Below are positions 1 through 10,304 of a stretch of DNA of 64,000 nt, piece by piece. The notes below the pieces were generated by a model. That model searched no databases. It was not told where the DNA came from and saw only the letters and a list, made by a program, of their open reading frames with translations. The position numbers and the translations under genes are program-made. Source of the DNA: Propionivibrio sp. (GTDB lineage: Bacteria; Pseudomonadota; Gammaproteobacteria; Burkholderiales; Rhodocyclaceae); NCBI GenBank assembly GCA_016705685.1, contig JADJLB010000001.1, positions 1 to 64,000 on the forward strand. The letters are read 5' to 3'. Numbering within the stretch: position 1 is the first letter of the stretch; every line of letters begins with the position of its first letter.

Positions 1-3000
1 TCGCATGCAGGATTGGGTGGAGACCCCGTCGAGGGCGCAGCAGGGAAAGTCGAAGGCTACTCTCCACGACAGCGGCAGGAAGTTCAAGCCGACGTCTTTG
101 CGGGAGAATTTCTCTGCCCGTCCGACTGGACACGTGAGCAATATGTTCTCCATGGACGACATCCGGCCCAAATCGCAAACGACCTCAAGCTGCCTGTCGG
201 ATTGGTATTGAACCAAGTCATTCGCGCTTTGCTCTTGCCCCCGCTCAGGGAGCCCACGGAGCAGGACCCGGGCGCAAAGATCGCGCTTGATCCCAGCCAA
301 CAAACCGCGGCGACATGGGACGCTGGGGCTTTGCTGGTTGTCGCTGGCCCTGGAACAGGCAAGACCCGTACCCTTGTGCACAGGGTCAAACACTGCCTTG
401 CGTCGGGAGTAGCCCCCGCTGCCATTCTTGCCTTGACCTTCTCCAACAAGGCGGCGGAAGAGATGCATGAACGCCTGTCCGCAATGGATGCAAGAGCATC
501 CTTGGAGATGTGGGTCGGAACATTCCATTCCTTCGGGTTAGAACTCATCACACGCTGGCCTTCGGGTATTGGGCGCTCACCGCAGGTAAAAATTATCGAT
601 GATGCGGGTGCGCTGGCACTTCTCGAAGCCAATTTGGAGAAACTATCCCTATATCATTTTCAAAATCTGTATGAACCAGCCTACGATCTCACGCATGTTC
701 TTCGAGCGATTTCCCGGTGCAAGGATGAGCTGATTTCACCTGAGGTGTATCGCAGGGAAGCGGATGCGGCCCATGCAGCCGCGCAGGCTTCAGGAGATGA
801 AGATGCCATTGCAGCCGCCGAAAAGACATTGGAAATCGCTCACGTCTATCGAGTCTATGAGGAAGCGCTTAAAGATGCAGATGCCGTTGACTTTGGCGAC
901 CTCGTATTACTGGCAATCAAACTCATCGAATCCAACAATGACGTTCAAGCTTACATCTCACAATTCAAGGCCATTCACGTAGACGAGTATCAGGACGTTA
1001 ACCTTGCGAGCGCACGGATGTTGCAGGCTATCCACAAGCAAGGAGCGGTGCCATGGGTTGTGGCAGATCAGCGCCAATCAATTTACCGCTTTCGGGCGCG
1101 GATCCATCAATGTGACTCGATTCCCAGATGAGTTTGGCGGAAAGTCTCATTCCCTCTCCACGAACTACCGCTCCCGCGCTCCAATCGTCCGCGCCTTCGA
1201 GACCTTCTCGTCTTCGATGGGCAATGGCTCCATGCGTGGCGCTTGGGGGGCATTTCGCGATGATGGCGGCGCCGTAACAATGGCGGTTGCGCCGACGATT
1301 TCGGCGGAGGCGGAATATATCGCAAGTCAGATTGAACGGTTTCGCGAACTCGGCATTCCATAGTGATCAGGTTATCCTCGCAAGAACGCACCTGACGCTT
1401 GCGCGAATCACGGGGGCACTGGAGCATCTCAACATTCCCTTGCTTTTCTTGGGTGACCTTTTCGAGCGCAAAGAAATCAGGGATTTGCTTTCCCTCGTCG
1501 CCCTTGACAGTGAGTACGGGAATGTCGGTTTGACCCGGATTGCCGCACTCCCGGAATATGAAGTCGCCCGAGATGACGCCATCAAATGCCGCCATTGGGC
1601 CGAAGCATCCAAAGTCTCAATCATTGAGGCCCTTGGGCGCGTGGCCGAGATTCCAGGCATAAGCGCGGAAGGGCGGGTTGGCCTTGCTCGCCTTGGCAAT
1701 CAACTCAAAGGATTGGAGCAGGCGCCACCCTGGGTTTACTTGACGACGTGGTTGTTTGAAAGAAGTTCGTACCTCAGGCCGCTTCTGGAGACCAATGATG
1801 CGGCCTCGCATCAGAAGCTGATCGCAATCTATCAACTGTTAAAAGTGTGCGGCGAGCAATATACCGCCGGGGCGCACGATCGAAAGCAGTTCCTTGCGCG
1901 CATCCGGCGCCTGGAGGCGCTCAATCAAGATGGTATGTATCGTGCTGTTTCATCGGAAGCATCCGATATTGACGCTGTTCGCGTTCTGACGATTCATGGC
2001 AGCAAAGGCCTCGAATTCGGGCTGCACATTTTGCCCGCACTTGCTACCCGCTATATGCCGACGACTAGCAATGGGTTCGTTGCCCGCCGCCCGAGAGCTT
2101 GACGCAACTCTTGTCCCTCCCCTGGTGATCATGACGCGGAAGAGGAGTGCGTGTTTATCGTAGGATTGTGACGGGCGCGGGACTATCTTTCGCTGAGCCG
2201 CGCAGAGCGCTACACCACGCAAAGCGCGAGCGCCTCAAAATTTCTTGACATCATTCGTCTGCCGAGCGTCAGGTTTAACGGCTCAGGAAAGACCTTCTCG
2301 CCTCCTTTGGTGGAAATTCCCCAGGCGCGACGAGATACTTATCCTGAACGTGAATTGAAGATGCACATGGATTGCCCGGCACGGTATCGCCACGAAGTCG
2401 TTGAAGGGTTGCGCGGGGGGCGGGACGACACACCGTATGTGCAGTTTCACCGTTGCGTTTACAGAACTGTTGGCTGGCTGGAAAGCGAACGGCAGGCGGG
2501 ACGGAATGCGGACCTCACGGCGGGGCTAGAGCGACTTCAGGCGGAGTGGGCGGAGCGGGGGCCAGTGGGCCACGGCTTCGAAGCGTATTACCGGGGCGCT
2601 GCTGAAGGAATGGTACGCGCGATGGCGGCGGCGATCGCGGGGGAAGTAGGAACATATGATCGTCAGGAATGGAAAGTCACGCTGGGAACGTCTTCCGTTT
2701 CCGTTACCCCTGATCGGGTCTTGATTTCACCGGAAGGTATTGTGCGCGTGCAGCGAAACCGCACTGGAAAGAAGACGAAATCGGAACACGATCAGCCTCT
2801 TTACGCCCTGATGCGGCTAGGCGCCCAGCAGCGTTATCCGGGCAAACAAATCAGCGTGGAAACGTTCTATCTGGCATCCGGGGATGTCGTGGTCGTTCCA
2901 CCCGGAAACGAGGACAGACAACTTAAGAAGTACACCGATGCAATCGCAGCAATTGAAATCGGTGAATTTCCTACGAAACCTGAACAGCGGAAGTGCCCGA

Positions 3001-3032
3001 ACTGCACCTTTTACTTTAGCTGCGGGAGCTGA
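1..3032 (+). pseudogene. Decayed ImmA/IrrE-UvrD helicase-nuclease fusion, 5' end outside window
   Basis: The reading frame is open from base 1, so the gene starts upstream. Its first visible residues (QADVFAGEFLCP) resemble the C-terminal helix of ImmA/IrrE metallopeptidases. An SF1 UvrD/PcrA-type helicase follows: motif I GPGTGKT near base 350, motif II VDEYQD near 980, motif III VVADQRQSIYRFR near 1065, motif V TIHGSKGLEF near 1990 and motif VI near 2160. The last part (2307-3032) resembles AddB/Cas4-type nucleases, with an early Cys (DCPARYRH) and a closing CPNCTFYFSC iron-sulfur signature. The chain is broken several times. Frame shifts occur near 1100, near 1360 and between 2090 and 2150. 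An in-frame TGA at 2169-2171 sits in motif VI, where threonine is expected (VALTRAR). It was probably a DNA-processing or defence enzyme and is now inactive. Independent sequencing errors are possible but unlikely, because the adjoining genes are intact. Confidence 0.8.
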
Positions 3033-3052
3033 GAACAGTCGTCCCCGCTTTT

Positions 3053-3082
3053 TTGACGGTCGCATCGCTTACTAGATATAGG
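3053..3082 (+). promoter_or_regulatory. Candidate sigma70 promoter of the ubiquitin-like operon
   Basis: TTGACG at 3053-3058 matches the -35 consensus at five of six bases. TATAGG at 3077-3082 lies 18 bp downstream. The site falls in the 84-bp gap between the broken helicase gene and the ubiquitin-like gene, so the operon would not depend on read-through. Confidence 0.45.
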
Positions 3083-3109
3083 CCCAAATGGGGGCCTCCT
3101 CATAGGAGT
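3080..3109 (+). promoter_or_regulatory. Leader hairpins around the ribosome binding site of the ubiquitin-like gene
   Basis: AGGCCC (3080-3085) and GGGCCT (3092-3097) can pair across a 6-nt loop. Just downstream TCCT (3097-3100) can pair with AGGA (3104-3107), part of the GGAG ribosome binding site for the ATG at 3117. The two hairpins share base 3097 and would compete, so translation might be tuned. This is inferred from base pairing only. Confidence 0.25.
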
Positions 3110-3116
3110 AAGCGAT

Positions 3117-3602
3117 ATGACCACCAACATCTTCATCCAATCACACGACCGCCCGGGGATCATTGAAGCGGCCCTGAAAGATGCTGCGACTCTCGGCGAT
3201 CTGCACGACGCTCTGGTTGCAGCGGGTGTGGCGATCGACGCCGATACCTTCATCTTCATCGATGAAGCGGAGGAACCCCTCCACGGCGAGCGCCACCACG
3301 CCCTTCCCGGCATCAAGCGTGGTACGCGCATCTACGTCACGCGCTGCAAGCGCATCAAGGCAATCGTGCGCTTCCTTGACAAGACGGAAGAACAGGAATT
3401 CCCGCCCGGCACCCGCGTCCGCGCGGTGAAAGCCCAGGCTGTGCACGCCTTCCACATTACGCCGAAGGACGCCGCCGACCACGTGCTGCAACTCTGCGGT
3501 TCCACGGAGCGCCCGACCAGCGATACTCCGCTGCACCAACTGGCCAAGGGTGACTGCGCCGTCTGCTTCGACCTGGTTCCAGAAAAGCGTGTCGAGGGCT
3601 AA
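3117..3602 (+). CDS. Tandem ubiquitin-like protein (BilA-like, ISG15-like)
   Basis: This 161-residue protein reads as two beta-grasp domains. The first covers about residues 3-76 (starting NIFIQS and ending [10 protein letters not shown]). The second covers about 79-157 (starting IKAIVRFLD and ending DCAVCFDLV). The chain ends KRVEG, so the last residue is a glycine that an E1 could adenylate without processing. Two ubiquitin folds in one short protein, followed by E2, JAMM peptidase and E1 genes, is the layout of BilA in Bil antiphage operons, where the modifier is attached to phage structural proteins. The ATG follows a GGAG ribosome binding site 8 nt upstream. The domain and operon role are well supported; the exact family (BilA versus another multi-ubiquitin family) was not tested by search. 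Confidence 0.78.
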
Positions 3603-3604
3603 TC

Positions 3605-4090
3605 GTGACCACTACACCTTCTCCTGCTCAACTGCTTCTCGAACAGGACCTTGCGGCGGCGGACATCCGCTGCGGCGAGGTTGAAGGGCGGTGGCGCCTT
3701 GTGGCTCTTCAATGGCCACACGTCGTCTTCGCCATTTCGGCACCGCCGCGCCCGAACGCGCCACTGGAGTTTGGCTTGCGCTTCGAGTGCACCGGCTACC
3801 GGCAAAACCCGGTGACGGGTCAGCCGTGGAACCTGGACGCAAATGGCCCTTTGCCGATGGCGAAATGGCCGACGGGACCGAGGGTTGTCCCGTCAATCTT
3901 CCGCCCGGACTGGAAAGAGGGGCATTGCCTATACCTGCCTTGCGACCGTATGTCGATCGAAGGGCACCCCAACTGGATCAATGAACACCCCTCGCGCCTC
4001 TGGCAACCAGATCGCGGGCTCATCTGCTATCTGGAGCAAATTCATGAACTTTTCAATCAAAGCGACTATGCGGGGGTGGTGGGCGCCTGA
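3605..4090 (+). CDS. E2-like ubiquitin-conjugating enzyme (BilB-like)
   Basis: This 161-residue protein starts at a GTG two bases after the ubiquitin-like gene's stop, with GAGGG in the upstream gene's last codons as ribosome binding site. It has the look of prokaryotic E2-fold proteins: a central strand-rich stretch ([21 protein letters not shown]), then a conserved-looking block [10 protein letters not shown] at residues 106-115, then a Trp/His-rich tail. Cys113 or Cys108 is the candidate thioester cysteine; the sequence alone does not decide. It would take the activated ubiquitin-like protein from the E1 encoded downstream and pass it to targets. Identification depends partly on context, since prokaryotic E2 sequences diverge strongly. 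Confidence 0.7.
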
Positions 4091-4565
4091 GCACCGGCTT
4101 ACCTGCCCCGCCGTCCTCTGGCATCAAATCGTTTCAGAACTTCACCGGCGCGGCGAACACCGGCATGAGGCCGGAGCGTTCTTGCTCGGTGTTGAAAAAA
4201 ACGGGCTAAGCGAGGTGAAATCCGCCATCTATTACGATGACCTGGATGCCAATGCCTATTCGACCGGCGTGTGCGTCTTGCATGGGGATGCATTTTCCGA
4301 ACTGTGGGCGCGGTGCCGCGCGGAGTGCTTGACCGTCGTTGCCGATGTCCATACCCACCCGGATACCGGCTTCCAGAGTCACGCCGACAAAACCAATCCA
4401 ATGGTCGCGCGCGCCGGTCATATCGCCATCATCGTGCCTGATTTCGCGCGCTGGCCAATTAGGGAAAGCCGCATGGGCGTCTATGAATATCAGGGGCAAC
4501 ACAAATGGATCAACAGGAGCCCTGACCGCGCGCGGAACTTCTTCTACACCGGATTCTGGAGTTAG
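4068..4565 (+). CDS. JAMM/Mov34 isopeptidase (BilD-like deubiquitinase)
   Basis: This 165-residue zinc peptidase would remove or process the ubiquitin-like protein. The JAMM residues are visible: Glu34 in HEAGAFLLG, then [17 protein letters not shown] with His95, His97, Ser104 and Asp107. The ATG at 4068 (MRGWWAPEH) is chosen because it is in frame and overlaps the E2 stop by 23 bp, which implies translational coupling. Longer frame extensions upstream only cover the E2 gene. The protein has no other domain, like stand-alone DUBs of Bil operons. The E1 gene follows after two bases. Confidence 0.82.
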
Positions 4566-4567
4566 AC

Positions 4568-5938
4568 ATGGAAGACATCATTGATCACACCAAACTGCAT
4601 CGCGGCGCCAAATTCTTCATGGACAGTGGGCGCTCCGCGACCTATGAGGAGGCGATGTCTTTGCTCGGGAAGTTCGGACTGACCATTGTGGTGGGTGCAG
4701 ATATTGCAAGCTCCGTGGCATGCCAGACGGCATTGCTTTCCCTCATCAATGTCGCACGCAGGACGTTTCTCGCCGGGATCGACGTAATTGGGCTCCCCGA
4801 TTGCGCCAGCAAAACACCGCTGACGTCCCGTGATCACCTGATTGAGGCCGTCATTGAACTAGGCGGCAACGTTGCCACGGAAGCGCGCCCGGAATGGCCG
4901 ACGGCGCTGATCGGGAACGCAGTCGCATCTCCACGTGGGCTGCCTGCTTGGAAGTTGACATGGGACGGATGGCGCGGCGGCGTTGTACCTGCGGACAGCG
5001 GCGAACATCTTGCGGATGATGAAGCTATACCGCTCGCGCCGATCCTCGCCGCTGCCGCTTGCGCCGCCGAGGCCTTCGCTGTTCACGCGGGTGATCACGC
5101 TACGGTCGGGCATAGGGACGCAGGGCTCTCGCTGTGGCGTCCGGGCGCGAATTGGTTGAATCCGGACGAAAGCGAACCCGCGCTCGTATACCTGCCTAGC
5201 CGCCTTTGGCTGATCGGTCTTGGCAATCTTGGTCAAGCTTTTTCATGGTTGCTGGCTTGCCTGCCGTATGAAATGCCGCGCGAAGTCCATCTGGTACTGC
5301 AAGACTATGATCGCATCGCCCAATCCAATGACAGCACTTCAATGCTGTCCTGTATTACCGACATCGGAAAGATGAAAAGCCGGGTCGTGTCGGACTGGCT
5401 AGAAGCGCGAGGGTTTACCACTTACCTAGAGGAACGCCGCTTCGGCCCCTGGACGCGTCGTACCAAGGATGAACCAGGGCTGGCCCTTTGCGGCGTGGAC
5501 AACGCAAACGCCCGCGCAGTGCTGGATCAAGCGGGATTTGACCTAATTGTGGAGGTGGGGTTGGGAGGAGGACCTCAGGCTTTCCGAAACATGTCTATCC
5601 ACACTTTTCCGGCCTCCCGCACGCCGGCGCAAATTTGGGGCGGACAGGTCGCACAAGCCGATGAGAACTTCGAAGCACAGCCTGCCTATCAAGCGTTGAA
5701 GCAGGCGGGAATGGACGGGTGTGGGCTCACGCAACTTGCCTCCCGGACCGTTGGCGTTCCGTTCGTCGGGCTTATCGCGGCATGCCTGACCATCGCCGAA
5801 GTGCTACGTCGCCTACATGGTGGGGCAGCCCTAGAATTTCTCTCGATGTCGGCATCCACTTTGGATGATATTGAGAGCGGGACGCTACCTGCACTGCCAT
5901 ACGCACACGGGTATGTTGATGCTAAGAAATTACGCTGA
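4568..5938 (+). CDS. E1-like ubiquitin-activating enzyme, ThiF fold (BilC-like)
   Basis: This 456-residue protein would adenylate the C-terminal glycine of the ubiquitin-like protein and form the E1 thioester. The active Rossmann adenylation domain covers about residues 207-430, with nucleotide loop GLGNLG at 217-222, acidic QDYDRI at 245-250 and KMKSR at 268-272. The motif DGCGLTQLASR places the candidate catalytic Cys at 385. The first 190 residues also look like a Rossmann domain (LTIVVGADIASSVA near 38-51) without the nucleotide loop. They may be an inactive adenylation half, as in two-domain E1s; this is inference. It is the last gene of the four-gene operon. There is no CxxC zinc pair of the ThiF/MoeB type. 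Confidence 0.82.
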   Translation: MEDIIDHTKLHRGAKFFMDSGRSATYEEAMSLLGKFGLTIVVGADIASSVACQTALLSLINVARRTFLAGIDVIGLPDCASKTPLTSRDHLIEAVIELGGNVATEARPEWPTALIGNAVASPRGLPAWKLTWDGWRGGVVPADSGEHLADDEAIPLAPILAAAACAAEAFAVHAGDHATVGHRDAGLSLWRPGANWLNPDESEPALVYLPSRLWLIGLGNLGQAFSWLLACLPYEMPREVHLVLQDYDRIAQSNDSTSMLSCITDIGKMKSRVVSDWLEARGFTTYLEERRFGPWTRRTKDEPGLALCGVDNANARAVLDQAGFDLIVEVGLGGGPQAFRNMSIHTFPASRTPAQIWGGQVAQADENFEAQPAYQALKQAGMDGCGLTQLASRTVGVPFVGLIAACLTIAEVLRRLHGGAALEFLSMSASTLDDIESGTLPALPYAHGYVDAKKLR

Positions 5939-6338
5939 AGGGCGGGTGTGACAAAATTTGGCGGCCCCGGCCGAGGCTTGGGTCGGTGCGCGGCCCGACA
6001 CATCGCGTACCGCAAGGCGGGCTGCAGTTTTGTGTCTGCCAGCGGTTAAACGGCAAGACTGCCGTTCGACCTACCTCGCTGACCAACGTCCGGTAATGGA
6101 TGAATTACCGACGCACTGGCACCAGACAGCCAAAGACGGCTTAGGCCGAGTTGTGTGAATTGACCCTACGGCAGCTCACGGAGTGCTGCAGCCATCCCAA
6201 CGACAGCAAACCCCCTGGGGCGAACTTCCGCTTCTGGCCGAACTGAGACCGCTGGATGAGTATCACGCCAACATCCCGCACTGCACAGGCGCAAATCAAC
6301 ACCAATTGCGGTAGCCAGCTTAGCGTCGACTGCCGCCC
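5939..6338. other. Intergenic region with hairpins, no gene
   Basis: This region separates the convergent E1 and enoyl-CoA hydratase genes. AACGGCA (6049-6055) pairs with TGCCGTT (6060-6066) across 4 nt. CGGTAAT (6091-6097) pairs with ATTACCG (6104-6110) across 6 nt. Neither is followed by a T run, so they may be factor-independent stops of weak form or remnants of repeats. The short open frames here lack homology cues. Confidence 0.4.
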
Positions 6339-7145
6339 CTAGCGGCCTTTCCACTCGGCCTTGCGCTTGCCGACAAAAGCGTCGATGCCCTCGGCCGCAT
6401 CCTCGCTCATCATATTGCAGGCCATCACTTCGGACGCGTACTGGTAGGCCGCGTCGAGCCCCATTTCGAGCTGCTTGTAGAACATCTGCTTGCCCATGCC
6501 GATGGCCAGCGACGACTTGGCGAGAATCGACTGAGCGATTTTATCGACCTCGGCATCGAGTGCATCGGCGGGAACGACCCGGTTGACCAGCCCCTGTTGC
6601 AGGGCCGTCGGTGCATCGATGAAGTCGCCGGTCAGCAACATTTCCAGCGCCTGCTTGCGGCCGAGATTGCGCGAAAGCGCGACCCCCGGGGTTGAGCAGA
6701 ACAGCCCAACATTGATGCCTGAAGTGGCGAAGCGCGCGACATCGGCCGCAACGGCCAGATCACATGTCGAGACCAGCTGGCATCCGGCCGCTGTGGCGAT
6801 GCCATGCACGCGGGCGATCACCGGCTGCGGCATTTGGGTGATCGTCATCATCATCTTCCCGCATTGCTTGAACAATGCCTGCATGAACGCTTTGGCGGGG
6901 TTGGCGCGCATTTCCTTGAGGTCGTGCCCGGCGCAGAATGCCTTGCCGGCACCGGCAATCACTACAACACGTACCGCCGGATCAGCAGCGATTGCATCCA
7001 ACTCGGTTTGCAGCGCAGCGATCATTCCTGTCGACAACGCGTTGAACTGATTCGGCCGATTGAGTGTCAGCGTCGCAATGCCTGGGCGATTGTCCCCGGA
7101 GTCACTGCGCAGGACGTAAGGCTCCTGAATCGTCTCGGTATTCAT
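6339..7145 (-). CDS. Enoyl-CoA hydratase/isomerase family protein
   Basis: This 268-residue crotonase-fold protein is predicted to act on acyl-CoA thioesters in the cytoplasm. The family signature is visible: IATLTLNRPNQFNAL near residues 23-37, the oxyanion-hole segment AGAGKAFCAGHDLKEM near 64-79 and GIATAAGCQLVSTCDLAVAA near 115-134. The length is typical. It resembles the ECHDC3-like group, but the substrate cannot be fixed from sequence. The ATG is preceded by two AGGAG motifs. It lies 27 bp downstream of the large penicillin-binding gene on the same strand, so co-transcription is possible without a clear functional link. A beta-oxidation role is only inferred. Confidence 0.88.
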   Translation of the reverse strand: MNTETIQEPYVLRSDSGDNRPGIATLTLNRPNQFNALSTGMIAALQTELDAIAADPAVRVVVIAGAGKAFCAGHDLKEMRANPAKAFMQALFKQCGKMMMTITQMPQPVIARVHGIATAAGCQLVSTCDLAVAADVARFATSGINVGLFCSTPGVALSRNLGRKQALEMLLTGDFIDAPTALQQGLVNRVVPADALDAEVDKIAQSILAKSSLAIGMGKQMFYKQLEMGLDAAYQYASEVMACNMMSEDAAEGIDAFVGKRKAEWKGR

Positions 7146-7172
7146 CTCCTGCTCTCCTGTTGGACTACGCGA

Positions 7173-10100
7173 TCAACCGCCAGTCTTGGTCATCCCGACG
7201 GAATGCGTTACCGGTGGTGTTGGCTCGCCCTTCGCCGACTCCACCATGCGCTGGGGTGTCTCGCTGCAACGCCCCGGATCGGCTTCTTTGCCACTGACCA
7301 ATGGCAGCAATGCCGGCCGCAACTCCTTGAGTATCTGTACGGGCAGTGCTGAAGTAAAGTCATAACCAGCGGCTTTGGCCCCCGGCACAAAAGCGGTCAC
7401 CACGCCGTAGAAGCGCTCGCCAATGTAGAAGGCGAACGTCGCTGCGCGGTTCATGACGCGCGAACTCTTGACCGTCCCGTCCGCGCCGATCACCTGGAAG
7501 CGATGATCACCGGTGCCCGTTTTGCCGCCAATCGGAATCGGCTTGTCCTCGGCGTCGCGGTAGGCGCCTTTGACGCGCCGGGCCGTACCGCTATCGACCA
7601 CGCGCAACAGGGCTCGCCGCGCCACCTGGGTAATTTCAGCCGGCAGCACCCGCTCTCCGGGTTCGAATCGACGCTCCAGCACGGTTTCGTAGGGCGTTGC
7701 AGCAGCAAAATGCAATTGATCGATGCGCACTGTCGGGCGGCGTATGCCGTCATTGACAACGATGCCCATCAGTTCGGCAAGCGCCGCCGGGCGATCGGCC
7801 GAACTGCCGATCGAAGTCGCCAGCGAAGGCACCAGATGCTCGAAGGGGTAACCCAGCCGACGCCATTCAGCGGCGATGCGTTCGAACGCAGTAACCTCGA
7901 CGATGATATCGATGCGCACCTGCTGGGCATGCTTGAAACGGCTGGCGAACAACCAGCGCGATGCCTCGCGGCGCTCGGCAACGCTGGCGGCGACGACGGC
8001 GTGCAACCCGGCATCCGGGTGCGTGTGCAGGTGACGAACCAGCCACAGTTCGAGCGGATGGATATGCGCCAGATACCCCTGGTCGGACAGGTTGTAGTTG
8101 CGCACGGCATGGTTGTTGAAAAGCCGGCGCAGGCCGGCGTCGGTACCGGCCCGATCGCCCAGGCGCTGACGCATGAAAGCCTGGAACGCGTCGAAATCGC
8201 TTTCCGGCTGCACGCCCAGAAACACCGCCGCCAAAGGCGATGGACGCGCGGGAACCGAATCGGCCAGCACATCGAGGCGTTCGGCCGGCGCGACATCGCG
8301 GTACTTGTGCCAGAAGGTGCGCAGGTAGCCGATGCCTTCACGTTCGGCAAAGCGGTTGAGGAACGTCTCGCGCGCTTCCTTGCCCCCATTGTCGTCGCTC
8401 TCGCGCAGCGCGCGTGCCGGAGCATCCTCTGCCTCATACGCGTAGTAATGCACAACGTCGTGCATGATCCGGACAAAGACCAGATTGACCGACTGCTCCA
8501 AAGCCTCGGCCACGCTCGGATTCTTGCCGTCATCCTCGTGCTTGAAATTGGAAAACCGGTGTACGCCGCCGCCGGTAAAGAACGTCTCTTGCGGGCTGGC
8601 CGAATAGTGCCGCTCCATGGCCGCTTCGAGCATGGCCGTCAGGCTGCGGTCTTCGCTGCTGCGCAAATAGGAAAGCGCCCAGATGCTCAGCCTGTCGCTA
8701 GGCTTGGTGGCGATGCCGGCCAGGGCTTTGGCGTCCAGGTCGACATAGCGACGGTGCAGGTCGGCTATGATATTCAGGTACGAAATCAAGGTGCGGAACT
8801 TGGCGCTCGACCCCAGATCGAGTTTGGTTCCGGCATTGATGTCGAGCGGCTGGTTCAGGTTGTCCGCCTGGACGCGCAGCACGTTGCCAAGCGGCGCCTT
8901 TTCGTAAAGGGTAAAGCTGTAGTTGACGCCCGCCGGGTCGCCACGGTCCAACATGCGATGCTCCTTGAAACCGGCGCAACGCAGGTAGTCCGCTTTGGCC
9001 AGACGGCCAAGATAAGCCGTGACCTTGGATTGCGCGGCGGCGTCCAGCGTCGTTCGCGCTTTGAGGTCGAAGCGGTCCAGGGCATACAGATCCTCGAAAC
9101 CGAGGAGGTCGCCAAGCGTCCCTCGGACATCGTTGACCGCCTTGCGCTCGACGAAGGATACGGCTTCACCCGCACGCACCCGCCGGGCCGGCACCAGCCG
9201 GGTGTGCAGGGCCGCATCGCGCAAATCTTCAGGAATACCTCGGTCGCTGCTCAGCAAGCGCAGGTAACTGTCGGTCAGGCTATCGAGGCGTTCCGTCGAC
9301 TCCAGCAGCAAGCCGGATGGGCGGCGCTGCGCGACGATCAGCGACAGCACCTCCCTGAACACCTGAGCCCGCGCGGCCAGATCGGCGTGCGGGTCGGACA
9401 GCAAGCGATTGGCGGTGTCGAAGTCGCGGCCGTACCACGCCCACAGGCCGTCGCCCAACCCATTGACCTCGCCGTAGCCAGCCAGCCCGGCGAGCGGCAC
9501 CGAGTTGAGATAGTCAAGGACGATGCGTTGTCGTGCGGGCAGCGTATCTTCGCCTTGCTGATACGCGCGCAGGGAGGCCGAAAGCATCTGTCGCAACTTG
9601 TCGTCGGCACCGCGCGTGCGACCGCCGGGAGAATGACGGAATTTTTCGATCTGGGTAGCCAGCGTACTGCCGCCCGCCCGCCCGCCTTCGAGGTCGAGGG
9701 CGCGCAACGTCTGGCCCACCGCCACGCGGCTCAATCGCCCCCAATCTACGGCCGGGTTGCGTGACGGGTGATCGGTATCGAGCAGATCGCGATTTTCGAT
9801 ATAGAGCAGCGCGTCAACCAGCACGGGCGGAATCGCCTCGAACGAAGCGTACTGACGCTCCGGATATCGGCTGTCGTAGATCGGCGTTCCGTTGCGGTCA
9901 AGCAAGGTCAGCCCGGCCTGCGATTTTTCGCGGTAGATCGGATAATAGCCGCGCCGGGTGATGTTGCGAAATCCGTCGGACTGCCGAGCCTGCGCGGTAA
10001 TTTCAAAACCGGCAGCAACGAGACGCGGCAGCATGTCCTTCATCTGGGTATAACCGAGACGCGTGCTGTAGGGGCCGAACTGGGGCAGCCAGAGATCGGC

Positions 10101-10304
10101 GCTGGGGCCATCCTGAGTTTCCCAGCTAATGCCTCGCGCATATCCGGAGAAGAAATGCGCCTGCAACGAGGAGTCGCGGGCTTCGAGCCAGACGACCGTT
10201 GCCGTGACAGCGACGACGACGAGTGCTGCCGTTCTCCAGAAAATGATGCGCCGCTTCCGTTTTCTTCTGATCTTAGTGCTCGTGAGGAAGCTTTCGCCTT
10301 CCAT
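7173..10304 (-). CDS. Bifunctional penicillin-binding protein (glycosyltransferase 51 and transpeptidase)
   Basis: This 1043-residue protein would polymerise and cross-link peptidoglycan at the outer face of the inner membrane. A basic N-terminus precedes one membrane helix (about residues 21-40). The glycosyltransferase part shows IENRDLL near 169-175 (catalytic Glu170), GGSTLATQIEKF at 211-222 and DYLNSVPLAGLAGYGEVNG near 264-282. The transpeptidase part has SxxK as SSAK at 499-502, a QSVN motif in the middle and KTGT at 928-931. All catalytic motifs therefore seem present. It is longer than PBP1A/1B, and the EDRRF-type motif has become ENRDL, so it is a divergent class A enzyme, perhaps for specialised growth. 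Confidence 0.85.
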   Translation of the reverse strand: MEGESFLTSTKIRRKRKRRIIFWRTAALVVVAVTATVVWLEARDSSLQAHFFSGYARGISWETQDGPSADLWLPQFGPYSTRLGYTQMKDMLPRLVAAGFEITAQARQSDGFRNITRRGYYPIYREKSQAGLTLLDRNGTPIYDSRYPERQYASFEAIPPVLVDALLYIENRDLLDTDHPSRNPAVDWGRLSRVAVGQTLRALDLEGGRAGGSTLATQIEKFRHSPGGRTRGADDKLRQMLSASLRAYQQGEDTLPARQRIVLDYLNSVPLAGLAGYGEVNGLGDGLWAWYGRDFDTANRLLSDPHADLAARAQVFREVLSLIVAQRRPSGLLLESTERLDSLTDSYLRLLSSDRGIPEDLRDAALHTRLVPARRVRAGEAVSFVERKAVNDVRGTLGDLLGFEDLYALDRFDLKARTTLDAAAQSKVTAYLGRLAKADYLRCAGFKEHRMLDRGDPAGVNYSFTLYEKAPLGNVLRVQADNLNQPLDINAGTKLDLGSSAKFRTLISYLNIIADLHRRYVDLDAKALAGIATKPSDRLSIWALSYLRSSEDRSLTAMLEAAMERHYSASPQETFFTGGGVHRFSNFKHEDDGKNPSVAEALEQSVNLVFVRIMHDVVHYYAYEAEDAPARALRESDDNGGKEARETFLNRFAEREGIGYLRTFWHKYRDVAPAERLDVLADSVPARPSPLAAVFLGVQPESDFDAFQAFMRQRLGDRAGTDAGLRRLFNNHAVRNYNLSDQGYLAHIHPLELWLVRHLHTHPDAGLHAVVAASVAERREASRWLFASRFKHAQQVRIDIIVEVTAFERIAAEWRRLGYPFEHLVPSLATSIGSSADRPAALAELMGIVVNDGIRRPTVRIDQLHFAAATPYETVLERRFEPGERVLPAEITQVARRALLRVVDSGTARRVKGAYRDAEDKPIPIGGKTGTGDHRFQVIGADGTVKSSRVMNRAATFAFYIGERFYGVVTAFVPGAKAAGYDFTSALPVQILKELRPALLPLVSGKEADPGRCSETPQRMVESAKGEPTPPVTHSVGMTKTGG

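Follow-up and report, generated by a model that had tools for sequence, protein, structure and literature searches.

The Bil (bacterial ISG15-like) system is reportedly known from Collimonas sp. OK412 through the work of Millman 2022 and of Hor, Wolf and Sorek 2024 (see PMC11364771, PMC12948488 and PMC13373217), and Chambers 2024 is said to have provided E1-E2-Ubl (ubiquitin-like protein) and BilC structures (8tyx, 8tyy, 8tyz and 8tz0) for a BilABCD system, whose source organism we take to be Ensifer aridi. To our knowledge, how bacterial Ubl systems sense infection is still an open question. According to the available text of two papers (PMC11364771 and PMC12948488), Bil of Collimonas sp. OK412 joins its Ubl to the central tail fibre of the phage, the particles being tailless or non-functional, and the operon protects against phage (available text of PMC11364771). 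Here we describe a stretch of 64,000 nucleotides from Propionivibrio sp. (assembly GCA_016705685.1, contig JADJLB010000001.1), further called the window, which is the first 64 kb of contig 1, beginning at base 1, of a genome of 3.46 Mb in 17 contigs that is 97.35% complete. A stretch of 1601 bases at the 16S gene of this genome reaches at most 90.6% identity, over 94% of its length, with Burkholderia multivorans records of the plasmid collection, in line with a host that is probably a betaproteobacterium. The window contains a complete bilABCD operon, which is very probably orthologous to the anti-phage system of Collimonas sp. OK412 and would act by the mechanism proposed below.

The operon consists of four adjacent genes in the order Ubl - E2 - JAMM - E1, all on the (+) strand (3117-5938) and free of internal stops. 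The gene bilA (3117..3602) encodes a two-domain ubiquitin-like protein of 161 aa with Gly161 as the last residue; bilB (3605..4090), starting with GTG, encodes an E2-like protein of 161 aa with Cys113; bilC (4044..4565) encodes a JAMM isopeptidase of 173 aa with the probable start ATG 4044 (alternative 4068); and bilD (4568..5938) encodes an E1-like enzyme of 456 aa with Cys385. All four proteins matched the PADLOC models BilA (2.9e-51), BilB (9e-63), BilC (9.5e-66) and BilD (4.4e-174), each model being covered almost end to end with E-values far beyond chance. In Pfam, BilB was assigned to DUF7665 (3.7e-63) and BilC to Prok-JAB (1.3e-6), while BilD gave a weak, sub-threshold match to ThiF. 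BilC also matched the PDB entry 8tyx, 'DUB(BilC) E33A Mutant' (E 1.5e-8, about 130 residues aligned). The genome carries one copy of BilD. When the PADLOC BilD model was run against 398 genomes, 179 of them matched, only four at E 1e-117 or better, the window among them; the remaining matches (1.6e-14 and weaker) are probably generic ThiF/MoeB proteins. As a single-sequence query of the genome collection BilD found no relative, whereas an alignment-based scan did. Thus, the four coupled genes of the first-pass annotation of this DNA, and its assignment of them to Bil, are borne out: family models, alignments, structure models and tree agree, and the operon can be regarded with high confidence as a further member of the known Bil kind.

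Residue conservation was counted among proteins covering at least 80% of the profile, with the window included, plasmid loci added for BilB and the duplicate L098 excluded. Gly161 of BilA, pointed out by the first-pass annotation, is kept in 74/74 proteins, and nothing follows this glycine in 61 of the 74, including that of the window. The five JAMM residues of BilC (E42, H103, H105, S112 and D115, counted from the 4044 start) are each present in 78/78; the annotation had the right residues, although its numbering (E34, H95, H97, S104 and D107) fits the start at 4068. Since eight of the ten relatives with a visible start begin at the aligned upstream methionine, ATG 4044 is the most likely start of bilC, and its overlap with bilB is then 47 bp instead of the 23 bp given at first. 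The ATP site and catalytic cysteine of BilD are equally well preserved (G217, G219, G222, D246, K270, D311 and C385 each in 78/78, R290 in 73/78), in agreement with the GxGxxG motif and Cys385 noted earlier. Of the two cysteines of BilB that had been highlighted together, Cys113 is conserved (78/85) and Cys108 less so (44/85); His121 is found in 85/85. Cys113 would therefore be the candidate for the thioester site. Seven BilB proteins (L043, L044, L045, L047, L048, L091 and L092) have no Cys113, and that of L043 has no cysteine at all; their E2 may be inactive or work in another way.

Structure prediction revealed both the ubiquitin folds in BilA and an E2 fold in BilB, so that the condition which the first-pass annotation had named as refuting it did not arise. 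The AlphaFold2 models, made from alignments of 60 and 57 rows, have a mean pLDDT (predicted local distance difference test) of 93.4 for BilA and 94.0 for BilB. The best Foldseek match of the BilA model was linear di-ubiquitin (6.5e-9), and ISG15 was also found (1.0e-7), with TM-scores of only about 0.4, reflecting a different angle between the two domains; the BilA family profile, run against PDB sequences, likewise reached linear di-ubiquitin (3u30, E 1.8e-4). The top three matches of the BilB model were chains of a bacterial E1-E2-Ubl complex (8tz0_C, 8tz0_D and 8tyz_C; 134-146 residues, E 2.0e-4 to 8.5e-4, TM 0.51-0.58); eukaryotic E2s, UBC12 among them, came after these at weaker E-values. 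The BilD profile matched ThiF and eukaryotic E1s in PDB at 1.8e-4 and weaker.

The closest BilD in the named genome collection belongs to Collimonas sp. OK412 (64-65% identity), and in a quick BilD tree the window is sister to it, with a Shimodaira-Hasegawa-like approximate likelihood ratio test (SH-aLRT) value of 96. Judged from its sequence, the operon is probably a working conjugation cassette. It is also a fair inference that it is a working defence system, because the tested Collimonas sp. OK412 system is its sister and the catalytic residues are kept. While the genes, folds, residues and kinship are as given above, the chemistry and the target are drawn from relatives, the mechanism being carried over from Collimonas by orthology. 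BilD would adenylate Gly161 of BilA and then carry BilA on Cys385; BilB would receive it, most likely on Cys113, and attach it to lysine residues of a structural protein of the phage, which by analogy would be the central tail fibre, leaving the progeny tailless or non-infective. BilC would cleave the conjugates and recycle BilA, whose trimming is not needed, since it already ends in its own glycine.

Several observations weigh against this interpretation. The Cys-Glu-His-His motif told for the E2 of the solved Bil system (available text of PMC11354881) is only partly matched, E119 being present in 34/85 and H128 in 40/85 relatives. In single-sequence searches of PDB, BilA and BilD found nothing and BilB only chance matches to a cytochrome. 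At the thresholds used, none of the solved Bil chains in PDB (Ubl, E2 or E1) was recovered with the family profiles, and the BilB profile gave no match there. Finally, a gene cassette is decaying next door, and the operon could be next.

In relatives, this cassette comprises, in order, a gene of a sigma-like helix-turn-helix (HTH) protein, a gene of a protein of about 210 aa and a gene of an ImmA/IrrE protease-helicase, and it occurs both on plasmids and on chromosomes. In the window, a broken gene of the UvrD-type helicase occupies positions 1..3032 of the (+) strand, its 5' end being cut by the contig start. Its pieces (13-1131, 1004-1363, 1287-2102 and 2307-3032) lie in three forward frames, and a frame scan identified two frame changes and two in-frame TGA stops. 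In Pfam searches of the separate open reading frames (ORFs), UvrD-helicase (2.4e-57), UvrD_C (1.9e-10) and PDDEXK_1 (5.6e-10) were recognised; the end part alone remains of the M78 domain (E 0.013, below the cut-off), the rest being lost at the contig start. Against the helicase profile the pieces score 508, 256 and 186 bits. Thus, the word 'intact' in the first-pass annotation suits bilABCD and fails for the larger ancestral locus, because the upstream gene, a regular partner of such operons, is broken here.

In the two intact relatives that were scanned, the UvrD motor is flanked by an ImmA/IrrE (M78) domain at the N-terminus and a PD-(D/E)XK-like domain at the C-terminus. Of the 94 helicases scoring above 900 bits, 90 contain HExxH, the four misses (L075, L091, L093 and L136) starting at most 140 bases from a contig end, and all 94 contain a C-terminal CxxCx5C. 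A working nuclease domain was rejected, since an acid at the (D/E)xK site was found in 0/53 parsable helicases, the pattern being loose, with some wrong stretches caught, and 41/94 helicases being unparsable. Identity with GajB of Gabija was also rejected, as the PADLOC GajB models match the motor part only.

The other two cassette genes were looked for in the genome of the window. The gene of the partner protein was not found in the assembly by its family profile (best E 0.23; 4e-35 and 1e-36 in two control genomes). The HTH profile matched two ORFs on other contigs at 42 and 35 bits, the genuine cassette HTH of a control genome (G1098) scoring only 48.5, and no partner-gene match lies beside either ORF. 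A single-sequence search for both genes, a weak test, was empty.

The breaks in the helicase might be assembly errors at the contig end, the real locus having a whole cassette, and two facts are in line with this: the window begins at contig base 1, where errors concentrate, and cassette genes further upstream would lie beyond the contig. This is nevertheless unlikely. The window is not noisy in general, because 36 stop-to-stop frames of at least 250 codons (overlap at most a fifth) total 52,584 of its 64,000 bases; moreover, two frame changes and two in-frame stops fall within one 3-kb gene and none within the next 2.8 kb.

The locus could also be a relict that decays helicase first, bilABCD being intact only because the decay is recent. 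There are about four breaks in the helicase in addition to its truncation at the contig end, and the missing partner gene points in the same direction. The break also looks recent, since the identity of the helicase pieces to a Rhizobium phaseoli protein (61%, 43% and 51%) is near the 54% of BilD. Such a relict is improbable, however, given that bilABCD is unbroken with its catalytic residues kept, and that Collimonas has also lost most of the cassette, yet its operon protects (available text of PMC11364771). The Collimonas locus (L059) retains the C-terminal fragment of the helicase alone (6037-7458), which means that most of the cassette had been lost from the locus of the tested operon; as the cassette is broken both there and in the window, bilABCD can evidently persist without it. 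The reading of the operon as a working ortholog of the Collimonas system is preferred.

The regular place of the cassette is evident from 98 Bil loci (L098 dropped), which are not independent, several being near-copies, and 79 of which extend at least 5.5 kb upstream of bilA. All three genes lie upstream of bilA in 68 of these 79, two of the 68 (L077 and L090) having the helicase split in two frames. The HTH and partner genes occur without the helicase in two loci (L038 and L092), a helicase fragment only in Collimonas, and none of the genes upstream in eight. Two of these eight (L084 and L086) have the cassette convergent and downstream, and the other six (L044, L045, L047, L049, L050 and L125) have an HTH/M78-type gene nearby, annotated or matched at L044, L045, L047, L049 and L050 as HTH plus M78, like CapH-CapP. 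Such a gene is also near L183 and L184, two of the three helicase-less Bil loci of the genome sample (L182-L184), and was not found for L182 by this search. The cassette HTH protein has about 260 aa and belongs to a loose family (28% mean column identity), in which 9/19 members match Sigma70_r4_2 and 4/19 Sigma70_r4. The partner protein has no useful Pfam match, one of 20 members giving a weak hit to a telomere-protein motif.

Some further arrangements were observed. At L038, L092 and L133 the HTH and partner genes are upstream of Bil and the helicase is gone; the three cassette genes can therefore part. Near-identical Bil operons with the cassette inverted and downstream are found at L083, L084 and L086 (Fulvimarina, two contigs, and Jiella). 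Very similar protease-helicases stand beside Bil in Rhodospirillaceae, Paracoccaceae, Pleomorphomonadaceae and Caulobacteraceae (L062, L066, L072, L078 and L079), and this similarity across different families makes a recent horizontal transfer of the locus likely. Many Bil loci are plasmid-borne.

The cassette is not confined to Bil. Of eight plasmid helicases whose records lay outside the Bil list, seven are immediately followed by a multiubiquitin - E1 operon, which includes DUF6527 in six cases; the eighth, from Pseudomonas koreensis (L140), is followed by IS66 genes, and a multiubiquitin match lies 6.4 kb away on the same side. The helicase profile, all rows of which come from Ubl loci, was then run against 398 genomes from the phylum, 399 from the order and 385 from a different class, samples that were not chosen for Ubl genes (genomes shared between samples are counted in each sample size, two candidates were scored per genome, and order and other-class matches were listed at E <= 1e-250). 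A full-length helicase was found in 13 distinct genomes besides that of the window, and all 13 have a Ubl operon directly downstream, multiubiquitin in 11 (10 with DUF6527) and Bil in two. In the phylum sample full-length helicases score at least 1237 bits, and the next match, the window's own pieces aside, 351. The 94 helicases above 900 bits are followed by bilA in 72 cases, most of which were found through Bil, and by multiubiquitin in 18; three are convergent to Bil and one is the IS66 case. In 90 of the 94, bilA or multiubiquitin lies at most 700 bases away. On the helicase tree the Bil/multiubiquitin label switches at least four times on well-supported branches. Relatives of the multiubiquitin E1 are present in 114 plasmid records (E <= 1e-10) and the helicase in 93 (E <= 1e-60); Ubl operons therefore probably exist without the cassette as well.

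The cassette is thus very probably tied in function to Ubl operons, and its neighbourhood suggests that it regulates them. Alternatively, it might be a defence system in its own right whose association with Ubl operons reflects no more than clustering in defence islands, as UvrD-like motors are known in defence systems, the GajB models of PADLOC match the cassette motor and many loci are on plasmids. We find this rather improbable in view of the Ubl operon directly downstream in 13/13 other genomes (the profile being built from Ubl-locus helicases), the short distance in 90/94 helicases, the repeated label changes on the helicase tree and a promoter-like motif common to both classes, described below. 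Least credible is that BilA is conjugated to a host protein (of DNA repair, or the helicase itself) with phage inhibition secondary: the regular DNA helicase neighbourhood in two Ubl classes would fit, but the described target of Collimonas Bil is the phage tail fibre (available text of PMC11364771) and the Collimonas locus has no whole helicase.

The first-pass annotation placed a candidate promoter directly before the operon. A scan of 2800-6400 for sigma-70-type promoters found none (1.2 expected in shuffles), so that this part of the claim was not upheld for that type, whereas an element that resembles a promoter of a different type is present, together with a hairpin at the start codon. 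The element (3043..3073, + strand) is in the helicase-bilA gap, where relatives have a two-block motif. The pattern TTCCGNTT occurs in 38 of 75 such gaps (1.4 in dinucleotide shuffles), compared with 2/350 downstream windows and 2/345 windows inside the helicase. The two-block motif was found in 34/72 Bil gaps and 16/18 multiubiquitin gaps (0.2 in shuffles), and in 20/470 random windows of the same loci. It also precedes the HTH gene in 31 of 68 Bil cassettes (5.5 in shuffles; 89/470 random windows of the same length). In 28/68 loci it stands before both the HTH gene and bilA, and copies of the same locus are more alike than copies of different loci (14.7 against 12.9 of 19 positions; 0/5000 permutations), as expected if a linked factor reads both. 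Against this, the copy in the window lacks the TTCCG pattern; judged by eye, it is closest to that of Collimonas.

Between this element and bilA, the leader contains an inverted repeat predicted to form an RNA hairpin (3064..3116, + strand), with an outer stem of 3064-3073 and 3107-3116 and an inner one of 3080-3085 and 3092-3097. It covers the end of AGGAG (3104-3108) and the spacer up to AUG, and its minimum free energy is -26.6 kcal/mol (z -4.02). In the clade of the window (loci L059-L090 with L032, the Rhizobium phaseoli plasmid locus, which has a whole cassette) the leaders have a mean z of -3.00, with 29/32 below -2; in other Bil leaders the hairpin is weaker (mean z -1.61, 17/53 below -2), and control starts in the same loci average -0.08 (10/165 below -2). 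RNAalifold, applied to a plain MAFFT alignment of 24 leaders, several of which are near-copies, found the outer stem, with two-sided changes kept in six of seven pairs. Outer-stem cells that pair make up 84.5% (75.3% in shuffles, 0/500), and the covariation score is 0.567 (0.380 in shuffles, 0/500). Two of five measures of stem covariation stayed within reach of the shuffles, namely double-change pairs (120/500) and further pair types (172/500). When the stem partner was slid, every measure fell or stayed equal. U-G pairs account for 27/168 stem cells, which favours RNA over a DNA operator. Rfam contained no such family at the leader, its one match (E 0.91) being on the other strand.

A dedicated switch is suggested by the promoter-like motif together with the covarying hairpin where bilA begins. 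In the ancestral locus the three-gene cassette before the operon would probably have switched it on. As the helicase is broken and the partner gene was not found, the operon of the window is probably read from its own leader, where the hairpin at the start codon would keep expression down. In its full form, one dedicated switch would govern at least two classes of bacterial Ubl conjugation operons, a tentative proposal which, with all its parts, we consider possible rather than probable. Its parts would be the sigma-70-region-4-like factor, the partner protein and the protease-helicase, in which an ImmA/IrrE domain is joined to a UvrD motor and to a nuclease domain that is probably dead. On meeting damaged or foreign DNA, the motor would unleash the protease and the factor would be freed. 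Once free, the factor would activate the two-block promoter (TTCCG, spacer, CGAYT) that precedes both its own operon and bilA. In the clade of the window the -10-like block would double as the 5' arm of the hairpin, so that transcripts reading through from the helicase gene could not be translated, whereas those started at the bilA promoter would be without the 5' arm and translated; gene e of phage T4 is a precedent for such start-site-dependent control by a hairpin. Collimonas and the window would be lineages that lost the switch. For PprI (IrrE), a related protease, sensing of DNA damage by way of single-stranded DNA is reported (PMC10904395), which would fit a damage trigger. The motif before the HTH gene of multiubiquitin cassettes speaks against the switch, being at chance there (2/18; 1.1 in shuffles).

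No description of the helicase cassette was found in the open-licence literature, and the text of Iyer 2006 (PMC1779556) mentions neither a helicase nor UvrD. While the operon is of value as a near relation of a Bil system whose phage target has been described, its neighbourhood matters more than the operon itself: the protease-helicase cassette, the shared promoter-like motif and the start-codon hairpin offer a testable answer as to how infection is sensed, one that would extend to two Ubl classes. The state of the Collimonas locus suggests that the tested operon comes from a locus without the ancestral control.

Beyond the operon, no convincing gene was seen in 5939-6338, 3' of bilD, after which opposite-strand genes begin, presumably of an enoyl-CoA hydratase-like protein (6339-7145) and a penicillin-binding protein-like protein (7173-10304). 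No tRNA gene that could serve as an integration site was found within the 64-kb window, and terminators in the scan of 2800-6400 were no more frequent than by chance.

Compared with known regulators, the helicase cassette resembles CapH-CapP (an HTH protein of the Xre/CapH family, cleaved upon DNA damage, with an ImmA/IrrE protease) in having an HTH gene and an M78 protease beside an immune operon, and differs from it in the fusion of the protease with a UvrD motor and in an HTH protein that is more like sigma-70 region 4; the PADLOC capH model did not match the two cassette HTH proteins scanned (L032 and L037). Another regulator pair, CapK-CapS, adjoins five Bil operons (available text of PMC13373217). 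The multiubiquitin (PF14452) - ThiF/DUF6791 E1 - DUF6527 operons, which resemble class 6e of Iyer 2006 (available text of PMC1779556), have the same three-gene cassette ahead of a Ubl operon and differ from Bil in another Ubl, another E1 N-terminus and the lack of a BilB-type E2; DUF6527 is absent from the multiubiquitin loci L145 and L181. With the system of 8tyx, 8tyy, 8tyz and 8tz0 the operon of the window shares its parts and folds, although the sequences are distant, the spacing of the E2 motif is other and BilA of the window ends at its own glycine. The likeness to Bil of Collimonas sp. OK412 extends to the same four genes in the same order, a sister BilD, a similar leader and a truncated upstream helicase. 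That system was tested experimentally, whereas the operon of the window is known from sequence, and of the helicase more is kept in the window, in pieces, than in Collimonas, which retains a single C-terminal fragment.

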